A stretch of DNA of 40,995 nt from Rhabdothermincola sediminis (GTDB lineage: Bacteria; Actinomycetota; Acidimicrobiia; Acidimicrobiales; Acidimicrobilacustridaceae): assembly GCF_014805525.1 (NCBI RefSeq), contig NZ_JACFSZ010000023.1, positions 1-40,995 on the forward strand. The letters are read 5' to 3'. Every line of letters starts with the position of its first letter. Position 1 is the stretch's first letter. Positions 22,470-27,830 of this stretch are shown here, one piece after another. A program made the position numbers and the translations under genes. The notes beneath the pieces are model-generated. The model was not told the DNA's origin and ran no database searches. It saw only the letters and a list, made by a program, of their open reading frames with translations.

Positions 22470-23582
22470 TCAGGAGACGGCGGGGACGTCCTGACCGAGC
22501 GCGAACTGGTCGTACTCCTCGCCGGTGTCGGCCCAGTCCTCGAACATGATCACGCCCAGCTCGGTGAACTTCTTGCGCAGCCACCCGTCCGCGGCGTCGA
22601 GGAGCCCCAGCTTCTTGCAGTTCGGCACGATCTTCGAGAACAGCATCGCCTGGAAGACCTGCTGCTCCGGCGTGGCCATCACCAACGACACGGCTTCCTT
22701 GACCGGCACGCCCATGCGATCCCACACCTCCTGCTGGAGGAACCGGTCCCGCATCCGCACCGCGGCCTCGAACGCGAACTCCTGACGCTCGCGGATCTCC
22801 TTGGCGTCGAGCTCCGCGTAGTACTCCTTGAGCGAGAGCACCCCGAAGGCCACGTGGCGGGCCTCGTCGCTCATCACGTACCGCAGCAACTGCTTGAGCA
22901 GCGGCTCGGTGGTGAGGTTGTGCATGAACCCGAACGCGGCCAGCGCCAGGCCCTCGACCATGATCTGCATACCCAGGTAGGTCATGTCCCAGCGGGGGTC
23001 CTCGATGATGTCGTCGAGCAGCATCCGCAGGTGGGCGTTGATCGGGTAGTGCCCGGAGAGCTTGTCCTCGAGGTACTTGGCGAAGACCTCCACGTGGCGG
23101 GCCTCGTCCATCACCTGGGTCGAGGCGTAGTACTTGGCATCGATCCAGGGCACGGTCTCCACGATCTTGGCGGTGCAGATCAGCGCGCCTTGCTCACCGT
23201 GCATGAACTGGCTGAGCGTCCAGTTCTGGGACTCGATGCCGAGCTGCAGCCATTCCTTGTCGCCCCAGTGCTCGAAGCAGGTCCCGGTGAGGTCCATCTC
23301 GCTCTGACCGTTGGCCGCCGCATTGGCGAGCACCACCTTCTCCTGGTCCACGTCGGTGTCCCAGGGCAGGTCGGTCTCCCCGTTCCACTGCGCGTTCTTC
23401 GCCTTCTCGTAGAGCTTGTTGAGCGCGGGCCGGGCCCCCTTCTCGTAGTCCCAGGTGAAGATGGCATCCGCGCTGTCCTTGACCGTGTGGACGAGCGCGT
23501 CGACGTCGGTGTTGGTGATGGCGAGGATCGCCTCGAGGTCGTTCACCTCGGACCGGCCGATGATCTCCTCAGTGCTGGACAT
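22470..23582 (-). CDS. Ferritin-like diiron-carboxylate protein
   Basis: 370-residue mostly helical protein. Ferritin-like diiron ligands are visible as E130 (HGEQGALI), E160-x-x-H163 (MDEARHVEVF), E210 (MVEGLALAAFG) and E240-x-x-H243 (SDEARHVAFG): two E...ExxH pairs, the four-helix-bundle pattern of oxygen-activating diiron enzymes. The size is larger than ferritin or R2lox and closer to N-oxygenase or ribonucleotide-reductase-R2-like oxygenases, but I cannot name the substrate. No signal peptide. It overlaps the upstream TetR gene by 14 nt (start inside the end of that gene), so both are made from one transcript controlled by the palindromic operator at 24238-24268. That links its expression to a small-molecule ligand. 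Confidence 0.8.
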   Translation of the reverse strand: MSSTEEIIGRSEVNDLEAILAITNTDVDALVHTVKDSADAIFTWDYEKGARPALNKLYEKAKNAQWNGETDLPWDTDVDQEKVVLANAAANGQSEMDLTGTCFEHWGDKEWLQLGIESQNWTLSQFMHGEQGALICTAKIVETVPWIDAKYYASTQVMDEARHVEVFAKYLEDKLSGHYPINAHLRMLLDDIIEDPRWDMTYLGMQIMVEGLALAAFGFMHNLTTEPLLKQLLRYVMSDEARHVAFGVLSLKEYYAELDAKEIRERQEFAFEAAVRMRDRFLQQEVWDRMGVPVKEAVSLVMATPEQQVFQAMLFSKIVPNCKKLGLLDAADGWLRKKFTELGVIMFEDWADTGEEYDQFALGQDVPAVS

Positions 23583-24195
23583 GCGTCTGCTCCTGTTCGT
23601 GAACGGGGGTGAGCCCGGGTAGGACGAAGGTCGAGACCAGCCGACGGACGTCGGCCTCATCGGTGAGATCGATGGGTGCTTCGGGGTCGGCGGCGTACGC
23701 CACCACCAGCCGGGCCGCCCATTCGGCGGCCCGCCCGGCGCGGTCCTCGGGGAGGAAGCGGCGGAGATGGGGTGCGAGGAAGGCGACCGCTCGCTCGAGG
23801 AGTGGATCGAGGCCGTCGAAGCTGAGATGGGGCAGCACGACACCCGGCTCATTGGCCAGGAGGTACTGGAGCGCGTCGTGGTCCCGCAGCGCCTCGGCGG
23901 TGCCCCCGATCGCCTGCACGAGCGCCTCCTCCAAGGTCCCGGCCCCATCCAGCCTGCCCTGCATGGCCCGGAGCAGGCGCTGCACCTCGGCATCCAGGAC
24001 CGCCAGGAGCAACACCTCGCGACCGCCGGGGAAAAGCCGGTAGATCGTGGCTCGGCTGCAACCTGCCTCGTGGGCGATGTCGTCAAGCGTGGTGCGCCGC
24101 ACACCCGCGCGGGATACGCAGCGCAGGGCTCCCGCCACGATCCGCGCGTCAAGTCGGTCTGGCCGGGGCTCGGCTGGACTGGTCACCGCCGGCAC
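23569..24195 (-). CDS. TetR-family regulator (of the diiron operon)
   Basis: TetR regulator, 208 residues from GTG 24195. The DNA-binding domain is RTTLDDIAHEAGCSRATIYRLFPGGREVLL (two parts of one HTH, about 34-63); the rest is a ligand-binding helical domain with no recognised pocket. The frame is open up to a TTG at 24273, but that TTG is the -35 element of the apparent promoter, so translation must start later; GTG 24195 has GGGGGAG 8 nt upstream and GTG 24186 is an alternative. Its last 14 nt overlap the diiron protein start. Autoregulation through the inverted repeat that covers its promoter is likely. Confidence 0.88.
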   Translation of the reverse strand: MPAVTSPAEPRPDRLDARIVAGALRCVSRAGVRRTTLDDIAHEAGCSRATIYRLFPGGREVLLLAVLDAEVQRLLRAMQGRLDGAGTLEEALVQAIGGTAEALRDHDALQYLLANEPGVVLPHLSFDGLDPLLERAVAFLAPHLRRFLPEDRAGRAAEWAARLVVAYAADPEAPIDLTDEADVRRLVSTFVLPGLTPVHEQEQTHVQH

Positions 24196-24409: not shown

Positions 24410-24997
24410 TCAGGGGAGCAGGCCGCCGACGAACTGGGACCGCACCAGCAGCTCGACCTGAGCCCGATCGGTCAGGTCCCACTGACCCTGGCTCCCGACG
24501 TAGGAGAGGAACATCCGGGTCAGGTAGTCCGCCGCCTCCCCCGGGTCGACACCGGGGCGGAGACGCTCGCCCCGGAGCAGGGCCAGCAGGTAGGCCCGCA
24601 TGGCGGCCTCGATGAGCGGCACGGTCTGGGACAGCTCCTCCAGCAGGGCCTCGGGCTCGGTGCGCAGGATCCGCTGCAGCAAGGCGTGCTCATGGATCGC
24701 CCGGTGACCGAAGATCAAGCCCTCCTCGAGCTTCGCTGCCAGGTCCGGCGCGGCAGAGACATGGTGCTCGAGCCGGGCGAAGAACCGGCCCACCTCCCAG
24801 GTGACCGTGTCGTGGACCAGATGCTCGCGCCCTCCCGGGAAGTAGCGGTACAGCGTGGCCCGGGAGAGCCCGGCCTCCCTGGCGACGTCCTCCAGGGAGG
24901 TCTTCGCCAGGCCCCAACGTTCGATGCAGGTGAGCGTCGCAGCCAGGATCCGTGTCCGGGTGCGCTCCTTGCCGACCGCCGCGCCGCCGCTCCTCAC
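24410..24997 (-). CDS. TetR-family regulator (co-transcribed with SURF1)
   Basis: 195 residues from GTG 24997, whose GTGA overlaps the SURF1 stop by 4 nt. HTH: KTSLEDVAREAGLSRATLYR then YFPGGREHLVHDTV (about 28-60). The helical effector domain (about 70-195) includes HHVSAAPDLAAKLEEGLIFG and MFLSYVGSQGQWDLTDRAQ. It shares the EAGxSRATxYRxFPGGRExL signature with the TetR gene at 23569-24195, so the two look like paralogues. The longer open frame (to 25087) reads through SURF1 out of frame and is not used. I see no palindrome at a promoter of its own; control may be through the SURF1 promoter. Ligand unknown. Confidence 0.87.
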   Translation of the reverse strand: MRSGGAAVGKERTRTRILAATLTCIERWGLAKTSLEDVAREAGLSRATLYRYFPGGREHLVHDTVTWEVGRFFARLEHHVSAAPDLAAKLEEGLIFGHRAIHEHALLQRILRTEPEALLEELSQTVPLIEAAMRAYLLALLRGERLRPGVDPGEAADYLTRMFLSYVGSQGQWDLTDRAQVELLVRSQFVGGLLP

Positions 24998-25794
24998 GCC
25001 TCCACCGCCTCCCGGCCTCGATGGCGAGCCACCCGCCGCAACAACAAGGGGTAGACGATGACCGTCAACCCGGCGAAGACGAACCACTGACCGGCATAGC
25101 CCAGGTGCGGCCCCTCCGACAGATCGGGCGGGGGCACGGGCTGCGGCAGCTCACCCTGGGCCGGCTCCTGGCTGGCCAGGTTGACGTACAGCGGCCACAT
25201 GGGCTGGGCGACCTGCTGGGCGAGCCGCCCGACGTCGACCCGGGAGAGGGTCCACAGCCGGCCTTCCGGTGCATCGACCGGGCCGCCCACCAGCCCGCCC
25301 GCCCGCACCTGCGGTTCTTGCACCATGCCCGTCACGGTCACCGAGGCGGCCGGGGGGTCGTACTGCGGCCAGGGCCCCTCGGGATCGGTGGACGCGAACG
25401 GCACCCACCCCCGGTTGACCGCCACGGCCGTGCCATCGTCGAGGACGAGCGGGGTCACGACCCAGTACCCCGGCAAACCCTCACTGGTGCGGTTCCGCAC
25501 CAGCACCTGCTCGTCGAGCGCGTACCGCCCTCGCAGGACCACCATCCGGTAGGCGACCTCCGCCACCTCCTCGGGCGACGAGGCCGGCCCGGCGGGTAGC
25601 AGCTCGCCCAGCGGCGCCGGGGGAAGATCCTGGCGGGACTCGATCAGCGCGTTGTGGGTGCGACGCTCGTCAAGCCGGCGCAGCTGCCAGAAGCCGAGGT
25701 TCACCATCAGCACGACCATCCCGGCGGCGAACAGGTGGGACAGGATCCACCAGGGCCTCCGCGCGAAGCGGTAGTCGGGACGTGGCTCGGGCAC
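24994..25794 (-). CDS. SURF1-family cytochrome oxidase assembly protein
   Basis: 266 residues with the SURF1 layout: a first membrane helix near the N-terminus (about 16-36, WILSHLFAAGMVVLMVNLGF) leading into WQLRRLDERR, a long extracytoplasmic domain with LRGRYALDEQVLVRNR, GYWVVTPL and VAVNRGWVPF, and a second membrane helix near the C-terminus (FVFAGLTVIVYPLLLRR). SURF1 helps insert haem a into the aa3-type terminal oxidase; no oxidase gene is in this window. GTG 25794 has TAGCCT 6 nt upstream, a leaderless arrangement. Co-translated with the downstream TetR through a 4-nt overlap, an unusual partner for SURF1. Confidence 0.93.
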   Translation of the reverse strand: MPEPRPDYRFARRPWWILSHLFAAGMVVLMVNLGFWQLRRLDERRTHNALIESRQDLPPAPLGELLPAGPASSPEEVAEVAYRMVVLRGRYALDEQVLVRNRTSEGLPGYWVVTPLVLDDGTAVAVNRGWVPFASTDPEGPWPQYDPPAASVTVTGMVQEPQVRAGGLVGGPVDAPEGRLWTLSRVDVGRLAQQVAQPMWPLYVNLASQEPAQGELPQPVPPPDLSEGPHLGYAGQWFVFAGLTVIVYPLLLRRVARHRGREAVEA

Positions 25795-25800
25795 GGCCCA

Positions 25801-25806
25801 AGGCTA
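25801..25806 (-). promoter_or_regulatory. TANNNT -10 box, SURF1-TetR operon
   Basis: Minus-strand TAGCCT, 6 nt before the SURF1 GTG, placed between that start and the hairpin below. Confidence 0.45.
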
Positions 25807-25812
25807 GGCATC

Positions 25813-25852
25813 CCGCCCGCGGCGACCGATCCTGGTCCGGGCCCGCGGGCGG
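25813..25852 (-). terminator. Long-armed hairpin after the type III PKS gene
   Basis: CCGCCCGCGG (25813-25822) pairs with CCGCGGGCGG (25843-25852), 10 bp, enclosing a nested GACC/GGTC stem. It lies 10 nt after the PKS stop and just upstream of the SURF1 promoter. No U-tract. Its right arm can instead pair with 25855-25862 (see findings). Confidence 0.5.
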
Positions 25853-25862
25853 TGCCGCCCGC

Positions 25863-26927
25863 TCACCACCGCGGCCCGGCCTCGAACAAGACGTGCTCGA
25901 AGCCGAAGCCGGGGCCCATCGCGGTGAGCAGGCCGGGCCCTGGCGCCGGCCCCGCCTGCAGAACCGCCTCCAGCATCACGAGCACCGTCACCGCGCTGAG
26001 GTTCCCGTGCTCGGCCAGGATGCGCCGCGACCACCCCAGCCGGCCGGCCGGCAGGCCGAGGGCGTCCTCGACCGCGTCGAGGACCTTGGTCCCCCCGGGA
26101 TGGACCAGCAGGTGCTCGAGGTCGGCGAGCCGCCAGCCCCGATCAGCCAGGGCCCGCTCGACGCTCTCGGCCACCCGGGCCTCGGCCAGCGCGGGTACGT
26201 CCGGCGCGAGCCTCCAGCGCAGACCCGTGGCGGCCATGTCGAAACCCATCACCCCGAGCGAGTCCGGCACCAGTGTGGAGGAGCGGCCGACCAGCTCGAG
26301 GCCTCCACCCTCCACACCACCGGGCGAGCCGGCGCGCACCACCGCCGCCGCCGCGCCGTCCGAGAACAAGGCCATGCTGACCACGGCCTGCATCGACGGG
26401 GGCTCGGTGCGGGGCACGAACATCAACGAGTTCAGCTCCGCGACGACCACCAGCACGCAGCGGTCACCGGCGGCGACGAGATCGGCCGCCAGTGCCAGGC
26501 CCGAGCAGCCCCCGAGTGACGCCGACCCGAACAGCGGGAGCCGCCGCACGCGGTCGCGAAGCCCCAGCGCGGGCGCGAGCGAGGCATCCAGCGCCGGAGA
26601 GCGCACCGCGGTGGTGGTCACGAACACCAGGGAGTCGACCGACTCCGGCGACACCCCGGCACCGTCGAGTGCCGCCCGGGCCGCCCGAGCGCCGAGCTCG
26701 AGCCCCTGATCGCAGGCGAGCTCGGCGCGCTCGGCCAGCCCGTGCTCGGACCCGTACCACTCGACGGGTCGCACCAGATGGCGATGATCGATACCCGTGT
26801 TGGCGAACACCGACCGGATGCGATCCGGTGGCAGCTCCGGATGCAGCTCGACGGCGAGCGCCGCCACGTCCTGCTGCGAGACGCGGGGCGCGAGCGCGGA
26901 GCGCACCGATGCGAGCATCGCAGCCAT
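25863..26927 (-). CDS. Type III polyketide synthase-like protein (Cys nucleophile apparently Ser)
   Basis: 354-residue thiolase-fold protein of the chalcone/stilbene synthase family. Family marks in order: FANTGIDHRHLVRPVEWY (about 41-58), VTTTAVRSPALD, ALFSDGAAAAVV (about 186-197), VMGFDMAATG, the catalytic His H276 (VHPGGTKVLDAVE), the catalytic Asn N309 (EHGNLSAVTVL), and the C-terminal AMGPGFGFEHVLFEA. At the nucleophile, members normally read FGLGCxxGxxGL; here the same-length segment is FGSASLGGCSGL, placing S137 where Cys is expected, with C141 four residues on. The enzyme may be altered or inactive, or C141 may serve (see findings). Substrate unknown. ATG 26927 has TAGGCT 8 nt upstream; a DedA-like/SDR operon is transcribed divergently 72 nt away. 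Confidence 0.85.
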   Translation of the reverse strand: MAAMLASVRSALAPRVSQQDVAALAVELHPELPPDRIRSVFANTGIDHRHLVRPVEWYGSEHGLAERAELACDQGLELGARAARAALDGAGVSPESVDSLVFVTTTAVRSPALDASLAPALGLRDRVRRLPLFGSASLGGCSGLALAADLVAAGDRCVLVVVAELNSLMFVPRTEPPSMQAVVSMALFSDGAAAAVVRAGSPGGVEGGGLELVGRSSTLVPDSLGVMGFDMAATGLRWRLAPDVPALAEARVAESVERALADRGWRLADLEHLLVHPGGTKVLDAVEDALGLPAGRLGWSRRILAEHGNLSAVTVLVMLEAVLQAGPAPGPGLLTAMGPGFGFEHVLFEAGPRW

Positions 26928-26935
26928 CGGCGGTC

Positions 26936-26941
26936 AGCCTA
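26936..26941 (-). promoter_or_regulatory. TANNNT -10 box, type III PKS gene
   Basis: Minus-strand TAGGCT, 8 nt before ATG 26927, in the 72-nt divergent spacer. Confidence 0.5.
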
Positions 26942-26983
26942 GGAGGCCCGAACCCGACCGGAGTCCACCGGACAGCCGGCGGC

Positions 26984-26989
26984 TAGGGT
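26984..26989 (+). promoter_or_regulatory. TANNNT -10 box, DedA-like/SDR operon
   Basis: Plus-strand TAGGGT, 10 nt before ATG 27000. It makes ATG 27000 a better start than the in-frame GTG at 26988, which overlaps the box. Confidence 0.5.
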
Positions 26990-26999
26990 GGCGGCGCCT

Positions 27000-27830
27000 A
27001 TGACGAGCGCGCCCGAGCCCTCGGAAGCCGAGCCCTCGGGAGCCGGACCCTCGGAAACCGGCACCCACCCGCCGGGCGCCCCCGATGCCGACCCGGCGGA
27101 TGCCATGCCCGGTCGCGTCGGCGAGAGCGAGCACCGGGGCGCCCCCAGCCGCCGGGCGCTGGCGGCGGTCGTCGTCATCCTGATCATCATGGTCATCGCC
27201 TCCTGGGTCGGTGACGCGCTCGGACCCGGCCTCGTCGACACCCGGCCGCTGCTGCTGATCGCCCTCAACTCACGGATCCGGTGGCTGGTGCTCACGGTCA
27301 ACGACCTGAACCCGGTCGCCTACTTCACCGTCGGCACCCTGCGCGCCCTGGCCTCCGACCCGCTCTTCTACCTGCTCGGCTACTGGTACGGCGACAGCGC
27401 GGTGCGCTGGATGGAGCAGCGGACCGTGACCGTCGGCCAGCTCATGCGCAGCCTCGAGCGCTCGTTCGGCACGTGGGGGTACCCGCTGGTGGCCATCGCC
27501 CCCAACAACCCCATCTGCCTGCTCGCCGGCGCGGCCCGCATGCGCCCGGCGGTCTTCATGACCCTCAACGTGGGCGGGACGATCGCCCGCCTGGCGCTCA
27601 TCAAGCTGCTCGGTGAGGCGTTCGAGGCACCGATCAACTGGGTGCTCGATGTCATCCGCACCTACCGGCTGCAGCTCATCGTGATCAGTGTGCTCGCGGT
27701 GGCCTTCTCCGTGTGGAACGAGACCCGCAAGGGCACGTCCGAGATCGAGCAGCTCCGCCATCTCGAGCAGGACGTGGGCGGCGACGGCGACTCGGGCGAG
27801 ACCGGCCGGGCCACGCCTGGAGAGCCATGA
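27000..27830 (+). CDS. Divergent DedA/VTT-like membrane protein
   Basis: 276 residues. A low-complexity Pro/Ser/Glu-rich N-terminus of about 50 residues contains a threefold 5-residue repeat. Then a membrane helix (AVVVILIIMVIASWVGDAL, about 57-75), DPLFYLLGYWYGDSAVRWME (about 118-137), a region FGTWGYPLVAIAPNNPICLLAGAARM, which resembles the DedA segment F.R.G...R..P..R...AG...M, and two more helices including LQLIVISVLAVAFSVW. In DedA proteins, which flip undecaprenyl phosphate or phospholipids, this segment has Arg residues; here APNN stands in their place. The tail is acidic. The stop overlaps the SDR start (ATGA). The function is probably membrane-lipid related, but this is a guess from distant similarity. 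Confidence 0.75.
   Translation: MTSAPEPSEAEPSGAGPSETGTHPPGAPDADPADAMPGRVGESEHRGAPSRRALAAVVVILIIMVIASWVGDALGPGLVDTRPLLLIALNSRIRWLVLTVNDLNPVAYFTVGTLRALASDPLFYLLGYWYGDSAVRWMEQRTVTVGQLMRSLERSFGTWGYPLVAIAPNNPICLLAGAARMRPAVFMTLNVGGTIARLALIKLLGEAFEAPINWVLDVIRTYRLQLIVISVLAVAFSVWNETRKGTSEIEQLRHLEQDVGGDGDSGETGRATPGEP
27015..27059 (+). repeat. Three 15-bp tandem repeats in the DedA-like gene
   Basis: Units GAGCCCTCGGAAGCC, GAGCCCTCGGGAGCC and GGACCCTCGGAAACC follow without gap and encode EPSEA-EPSGA-GPSET in the N-terminal tail. In-frame, so copy-number change would only alter tail length. Confidence 0.8.

Follow-up and report, generated by a model that had tools for sequence, protein, structure and literature searches.

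A type III polyketide synthase homologue with serine at the nucleophile position in five Acidimicrobiales genomes

The locus and the family of its product

The window, by which we mean the whole 40,995-nt stretch of DNA analysed, carries on its minus strand a gene whose product belongs to the type III polyketide synthase (PKS) family and has serine at the position of the nucleophilic cysteine. This Ser-type gene is followed directly, on the same strand and 68 bases past its stop codon, by a SURF1 family gene. The features discussed below are listed here, with codon coordinates counted from the ORF start at 26927.

24994..25794, minus strand: SURF1 family gene (Pfam SURF1, 151.5 bits; NCBIfam NF050123, 192 bits against a cut-off of 190)
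25863..26927, minus strand: Ser-type type III PKS homologue, ATG start, 354 amino acids (Pfam and phmmer matches; four orthologues)
26001..26003, minus strand: Asn309 codon, equivalent of chalcone synthase (CHS) N336 by alignment
26100..26102, minus strand: His276 codon, equivalent of CHS H303 by alignment
26505..26507, minus strand: Cys141 codon (TGC); residue not conserved, all four orthologues having Ala here
26517..26519, minus strand: Ser137 codon (TCA), at the nucleophile position by alignments
26988..27830, plus strand: divergent gene for a VTT-like membrane protein (VTT-domain, 31.0 bits, just under the cut-off of 33.9)

Further along the minus strand, at 22470-24152, lies an ORF with weak matches to AurF and to R2-like ligand-binding oxidases, whose true start probably lies downstream of the called one; homologues of it occur near SURF1 in many genomes of the family, at about 67-85% identity with partial matches included. 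No enoyl-CoA hydratase family match was found among the seven proteins of the window that were scanned.

The 25863-26927 protein matched the Pfam models Chal_sti_synt_N (75.8 bits) and Chal_sti_synt_C (70.3 bits), both above the cut-off of 27. The KAS III domain pair (PF08545/PF08541) also exceeded its thresholds, with ACP_syn_III at 27.3 bits against 24 and ACP_syn_III_C at 31.4 bits against 26.6, although these domains scored below the Chal_sti domains. A FabH-type KAS III was rejected at the family level, as the scores for PRK09352 (69.7 of 249 bits) and TIGR00747 (59.3 of 292.1 bits) fell well short of the NCBIfam cut-offs. The top NCBIfam model was that of the 3,5-dihydroxyphenylacetyl-CoA synthase DpgA (NF042429), but the score of 148.1 bits lies far below its equivalog cut-off of 425. 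When the source genome (3,293,621 bases in 49 contigs) was searched with the Ser-type protein, no second copy was found, the sole match being 25863-26927 itself.

The closest solved structure was that of Pks11 from M. tuberculosis (4jat, E 1.8e-55, phmmer). The alignments to the Pks11 entries 4jao, 4jap and 4jat were full-length, with 37-38% identity over 345-347 residues and the same His, Asn and Phe positions; the titles of these entries refer to methyl-branched alkylpyrones. An AlphaFold2 model (mean pLDDT 81.9, pTM 0.86), built from the source protein together with seven relatives, predicted a type III PKS fold for the entire chain. When the model was compared with known structures using Foldseek and VIA-align, the Pks11 entries ranked first (Z about 47; for 4jat, Z 47.2 over 345 residues with an rmsd of 1.8) and other type III PKSs came next, including THNS (Z 43.3) and chalcone synthases (Z 42-43). 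By descent and fold, then, the protein is a member of the type III PKS family, and it lacks the cysteine by which that family is defined.

Serine at the nucleophile position

The earlier note had proposed from the letters of this one gene that Ser137 replaces the nucleophilic Cys while the His and Asn of the triad remain intact, and had suggested aligning many homologues and looking for orthologues with the same Ser. Residues 128-150 of the protein read RRLPLFGSASLGGCSGLALAADL. In the phmmer alignments Ser137 stands opposite Cys138 of Pks11 in 4jao with no gap, and opposite a Ser in 4jat, an entry of the same Pks11 protein that we take to be its engineered C138S mutant. Pks11 thus has Cys138 (4jao), whereas the Ser of the proteins described here is natural and present in five genomes. 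Numbered along the 4wum row, Ser137 corresponds to C164, His276 to H303, Asn309 to N336, Phe188 to F215, Trp238 to F265 and Asn166 to T194.

We compared 116 homologues, namely the source protein, its four orthologues, mycobacterial loci from peptide-pattern searches, and order, class and phylum matches with E <= 1e-30; weaker, KAS III-like matches at the family level (L007-L030) were removed ahead of the residue count. Column 137 held Ser in 5/116, these being the source protein and the four orthologues, and Cys in all 111 others. Phe188, His276 and Asn309 were invariant (116/116), and the GPGFG loop and the remaining catalytic residues were retained in the Ser-type proteins.

The earlier note had also raised the alternative that Cys141 acts as the nucleophile through a shifted elbow, with a CSG motif as in KAS III. 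The CSG string is indeed present in the source protein, but residue 141 is Ala in all four orthologues, and the four-residue shift that this arrangement requires is absent from the alignments. In the AlphaFold2 model, residue 137 lies between a strand (128-133) and a helix (138-152), where the nucleophilic elbow would be expected, while Cys141 falls within the helix; model confidence is lower at 131-140 (block mean 70). We consider a Cys141 nucleophile hardly credible. Alignment, model and orthologues thus agreed that Ser137, not Cys141, takes the place of the nucleophilic Cys.

The four orthologues (G029, G031, G032 and G033; 52-60% identity) belong to the same family as the source, and the five genomes represent three genera (g1, g8 and g10) of this one Acidimicrobiales family. 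Their Ser codons are TCA, TCC, TCA, TCG and TCC. Since three different TCN codons occur across five genomes, a base-call error in a single genome does not explain the Ser, and sequencing or assembly error was rejected; the variation further indicates that the third base turned over while the residue stayed Ser. For the closest pair, G033 and G032, a simple counting method gave a dN/dS of 0.11 at a dS of about 1.0; the remaining nine pairs gave less reliable values of 0.24-0.49 (dS 0.86-1.32).

These data bear on the suggestion that the protein is a catalytically dead scaffold or a partner of the SURF1 product. The Ser-type gene does adjoin SURF1 in 5/5 genomes, but the catalytic residues besides Cys are fully retained, with Phe188, His276 and Asn309 present in 5/5 and the low dN/dS of the closest pair pointing the same way. 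Moreover, SURF1 was found in 37/37 genomes of the family, of which 32 yielded no Ser-type gene (some of these assemblies are incomplete), indicating that SURF1 is independent of the Ser-type gene. We therefore judge a scaffold role very unlikely.

Searches covered the genus (one genome, the source), the family (37), the order (397, a sample), the class (395), the phylum (396), 60 relatives of G029 and, by peptide patterns, the genome_contigs collection; at the order, class and phylum levels we used E <= 1e-30 and scored at most five candidates per genome. No further Ser member appeared in any of these sets. The order sample is incomplete, as it missed G029 and G031. The genome_contigs search returned seven loci, three of which were contigs of G031-G033, and a plasmid search returned 134 records, every one below 60% identity and with residue 137 unread. 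One contig, CAMAQM010000020.1 (L033), is titled as a 'Bifidobacterium breve' metagenome-assembled genome; its title looks wrong, because its genes and gene order match those of the Acidimicrobiales family. Separately, a genome of the same order (G066) carries three Cys-type type III PKS homologues (L038, L046 and L047).

Single origin and genomic setting of the Ser-type gene

A maximum-likelihood tree built from 104 of the homologues compared grouped the five Ser proteins in one clade (support 100/100) that was sister to a Cys clade of the same phylum, family f102 (support 99/97), with further Cys groups outside. Ser was thus fixed once, from Cys-type bacterial type III PKSs; as the tree was midpoint-rooted, the direction from Cys to Ser rests on the Cys groups on all other sides. 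Proteins of the sister clade are 39-44% identical to the Ser-type protein, but they have Cys preceded by Gly, with Val at 238 and Ser or Cys at 166 in 34/34.

Seven columns were private to the Ser clade (5/5 against 0/99 elsewhere): A71, R109, A136, S137, G154, N166 and W238. On recount, A71, R109, A136, S137, N166 and W238 were confined to 5/116 homologues, G154 lying outside the recount. T194, F265 and the GFGPG loop each have a role in CHS, and we place N166, W238 and A136 at or beside positions of the CHS active site: N166 matches T194, W238 matches F265, and A136 matches the residue preceding the nucleophile. Private changes in the active site, combined with invariant Phe188, His276 and Asn309, give the pattern of a re-tooled rather than a decaying enzyme. 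W238 alone would mean little, since the accessible part of a cyanobacterial study describes F265 as not conserved there either, with the triad kept in all seven of its modelled enzymes (PMC8086630).

The position of the Ser-type gene is constant: in all five genomes it lies directly upstream of SURF1 and has a VTT-like homologue as its own upstream neighbour, the gene order being dapB, an SDR gene in two genomes only (the source and G029), the divergent VTT-like gene, the Ser-type gene and SURF1. Isolated gene transfer into one genome is not favoured, as this neighbourhood is the same in 5/5.

We also inspected the SURF1 region in eight relatives without the Ser-type gene. The slot that the VTT-like gene and SURF1 enclose (25794-26988 in the window; also L167-L173) varies among the genomes inspected: five have the Ser-type gene there, three (G034, G035 and G022) have an AMP-binding acyl-CoA ligase, one (G028) has a different large ORF, and in two (G030 and G024) it is empty. 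In G036 and G010 the VTT-like gene was absent from the SURF1 stretch inspected. The ligase in the equivalent slot hints at an acyl-CoA function but is only suggestive, and the SURF1 neighbour points to no acyl substrate.

The Cys sisters have a different neighbourhood. In 3/3 genomes tested, a strong ICMT match (PF04140) lay directly beside the PKS gene, where the Ser clade has SURF1. At L176 and L178 the adjoining ICMT was assigned by Pfam, and L176 also has a nitroreductase on the other side; some genes of the neighbourhoods compared were named by eye (serS-like, kinase-like, rpsO, pnp), among them what is presumably a seryl-tRNA synthetase-like gene near the Cys-type PKS gene at L176, L178 and L180. 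With PF04140, no ICMT match was found on the contig carrying the Ser-type gene (0/5 genomes) and none anywhere in the source genome; the other four genomes had ICMT matches of 21-35 bits, some above the 24-bit cut-off, all on different contigs. The usual tailoring gene is therefore missing beside the PKS homologue in the Ser clade.

Proposed function and its implications

Because the Cys gave way to a conserved Ser while the remaining catalytic machinery was kept, the reaction of the Ser-type protein probably differs from that of its Cys relatives. Published mutants indicate what such a replacement can do. According to the available portion of PMC6274091, CHS C164A and C164S are unable to form naringenin, yet their malonyl-CoA decarboxylation drops only modestly; the CHS His303, Asn336 and Phe215 mutants listed there mostly lose or nearly lose decarboxylation. 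The same portion gives RppA C138S as having no activity and DpgA C160A and C160S as not fully losing product formation. For stilbene synthase, C164S is described in a passage of PMC3431822 as lowering the yield rather than abolishing it, with the protein unstable.

A natural Ser nucleophile on a thiolase fold is found in DpsC (Ser118), the priming KS III of doxorubicin/daunorubicin, for which self-acylation and acyl transfer are confirmed in the excerpted text of PMC12664062. DpsC differs in belonging to the KS III family of type II PKS clusters and in transferring to ACP. Its third triad residue is Asp in PMC12664062 and His in PMC9573744, as far as the sections available go, whereas all five Ser-type proteins have Asn309. 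The analogy is thus loose, as the Ser-type protein shares with DpsC the Ser nucleophile, by alignment position only, and has Asn in place of the Asp or His. The portions of PMC7763939 and PMC10896814 available to us contain nothing on a Ser nucleophile, and the literature searched, with most subscription journals outside its scope, described no natural clade of type III PKSs with Ser in this role.

From the published mutants and DpsC, retention of the decarboxylation apparatus together with a loading residue that can form an oxygen ester leads to a reading of acyl transfer or single condensation. The Cys-to-Ser replacement would have been fixed along with further active-site changes in this Cys-derived subfamily. 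As in CHS, His276 and Asn309 would bind the thioester carbonyl and bring about the decarboxylation of malonyl-CoA. Ser137, worse than Cys at chain loading, could yet form an oxygen ester and take up an acyl group. This group might then be passed to an acceptor, or one short condensation might be supported, in a cavity that Trp238 and Asn166 would reshape. We give about even chances to such an active, re-tooled acyl-CoA enzyme of the thiolase fold, which would keep malonyl-CoA decarboxylation and form a Ser acyl ester without being an iterative PKS; long polyketides are an unlikely product.

Alternatively, the protein might still carry out condensation and form polyketides as a type III PKS, loading onto Ser or handling its starter non-covalently, as the DpgA mutants may. 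The retained catalytic residues and GPGFG loop fit this, as does the remaining product formation by DpgA C160S (PMC6274091, in part), and the lowered but not abolished yield of stilbene synthase C164S (PMC3431822, likewise) leaves room for it. Against it stand the lack of naringenin from CHS C164S and the inactivity of RppA C138S (both in the same portion of PMC6274091), the private residues Trp238 and Asn166 of the clade (F265 and T194 in CHS), and a setting without the PKS-ICMT neighbourhood of the Cys sisters; we regard it as unlikely.

A malonyl-CoA (or methylmalonyl-CoA) decarboxylase, in which His and Asn would yield the acyl-CoA and Ser137 would be a small polar filler, seems to us similarly improbable. 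Invariant Phe188, His276 and Asn309 would suit it, and so would the decarboxylation kept by CHS C164S and C164A (PMC6274091, as excerpted). However, Ala would do as a filler, so that this role does not call for Ser in all five proteins, and Ser was kept across codons. Of the three kinds of explanation put forward in the earlier note, a decarboxylase-like or non-condensing enzyme remains the best candidate type.

We can only tentatively suggest a physiological role. The Ser-His-Asn subfamily may, though we think it doubtful, be a CoA-dependent acyltransferase that works through a Ser oxygen ester and shares a housekeeping operon with SURF1, a gene for cytochrome-oxidase assembly, and would then have been repurposed from secondary to primary (respiratory or membrane) physiology.

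For annotation, these genes carry a warning, as domain scores would label them polyketide synthases, a name unwarranted for the Ser-type protein short of an enzyme assay. The Cys has been treated as defining type III PKSs, and laboratory Cys-to-Ser mutants lose or reduce their product. A natural clade in which Ser is fixed, together with private active-site changes, is a direct test of what this fold can do without the thiol.
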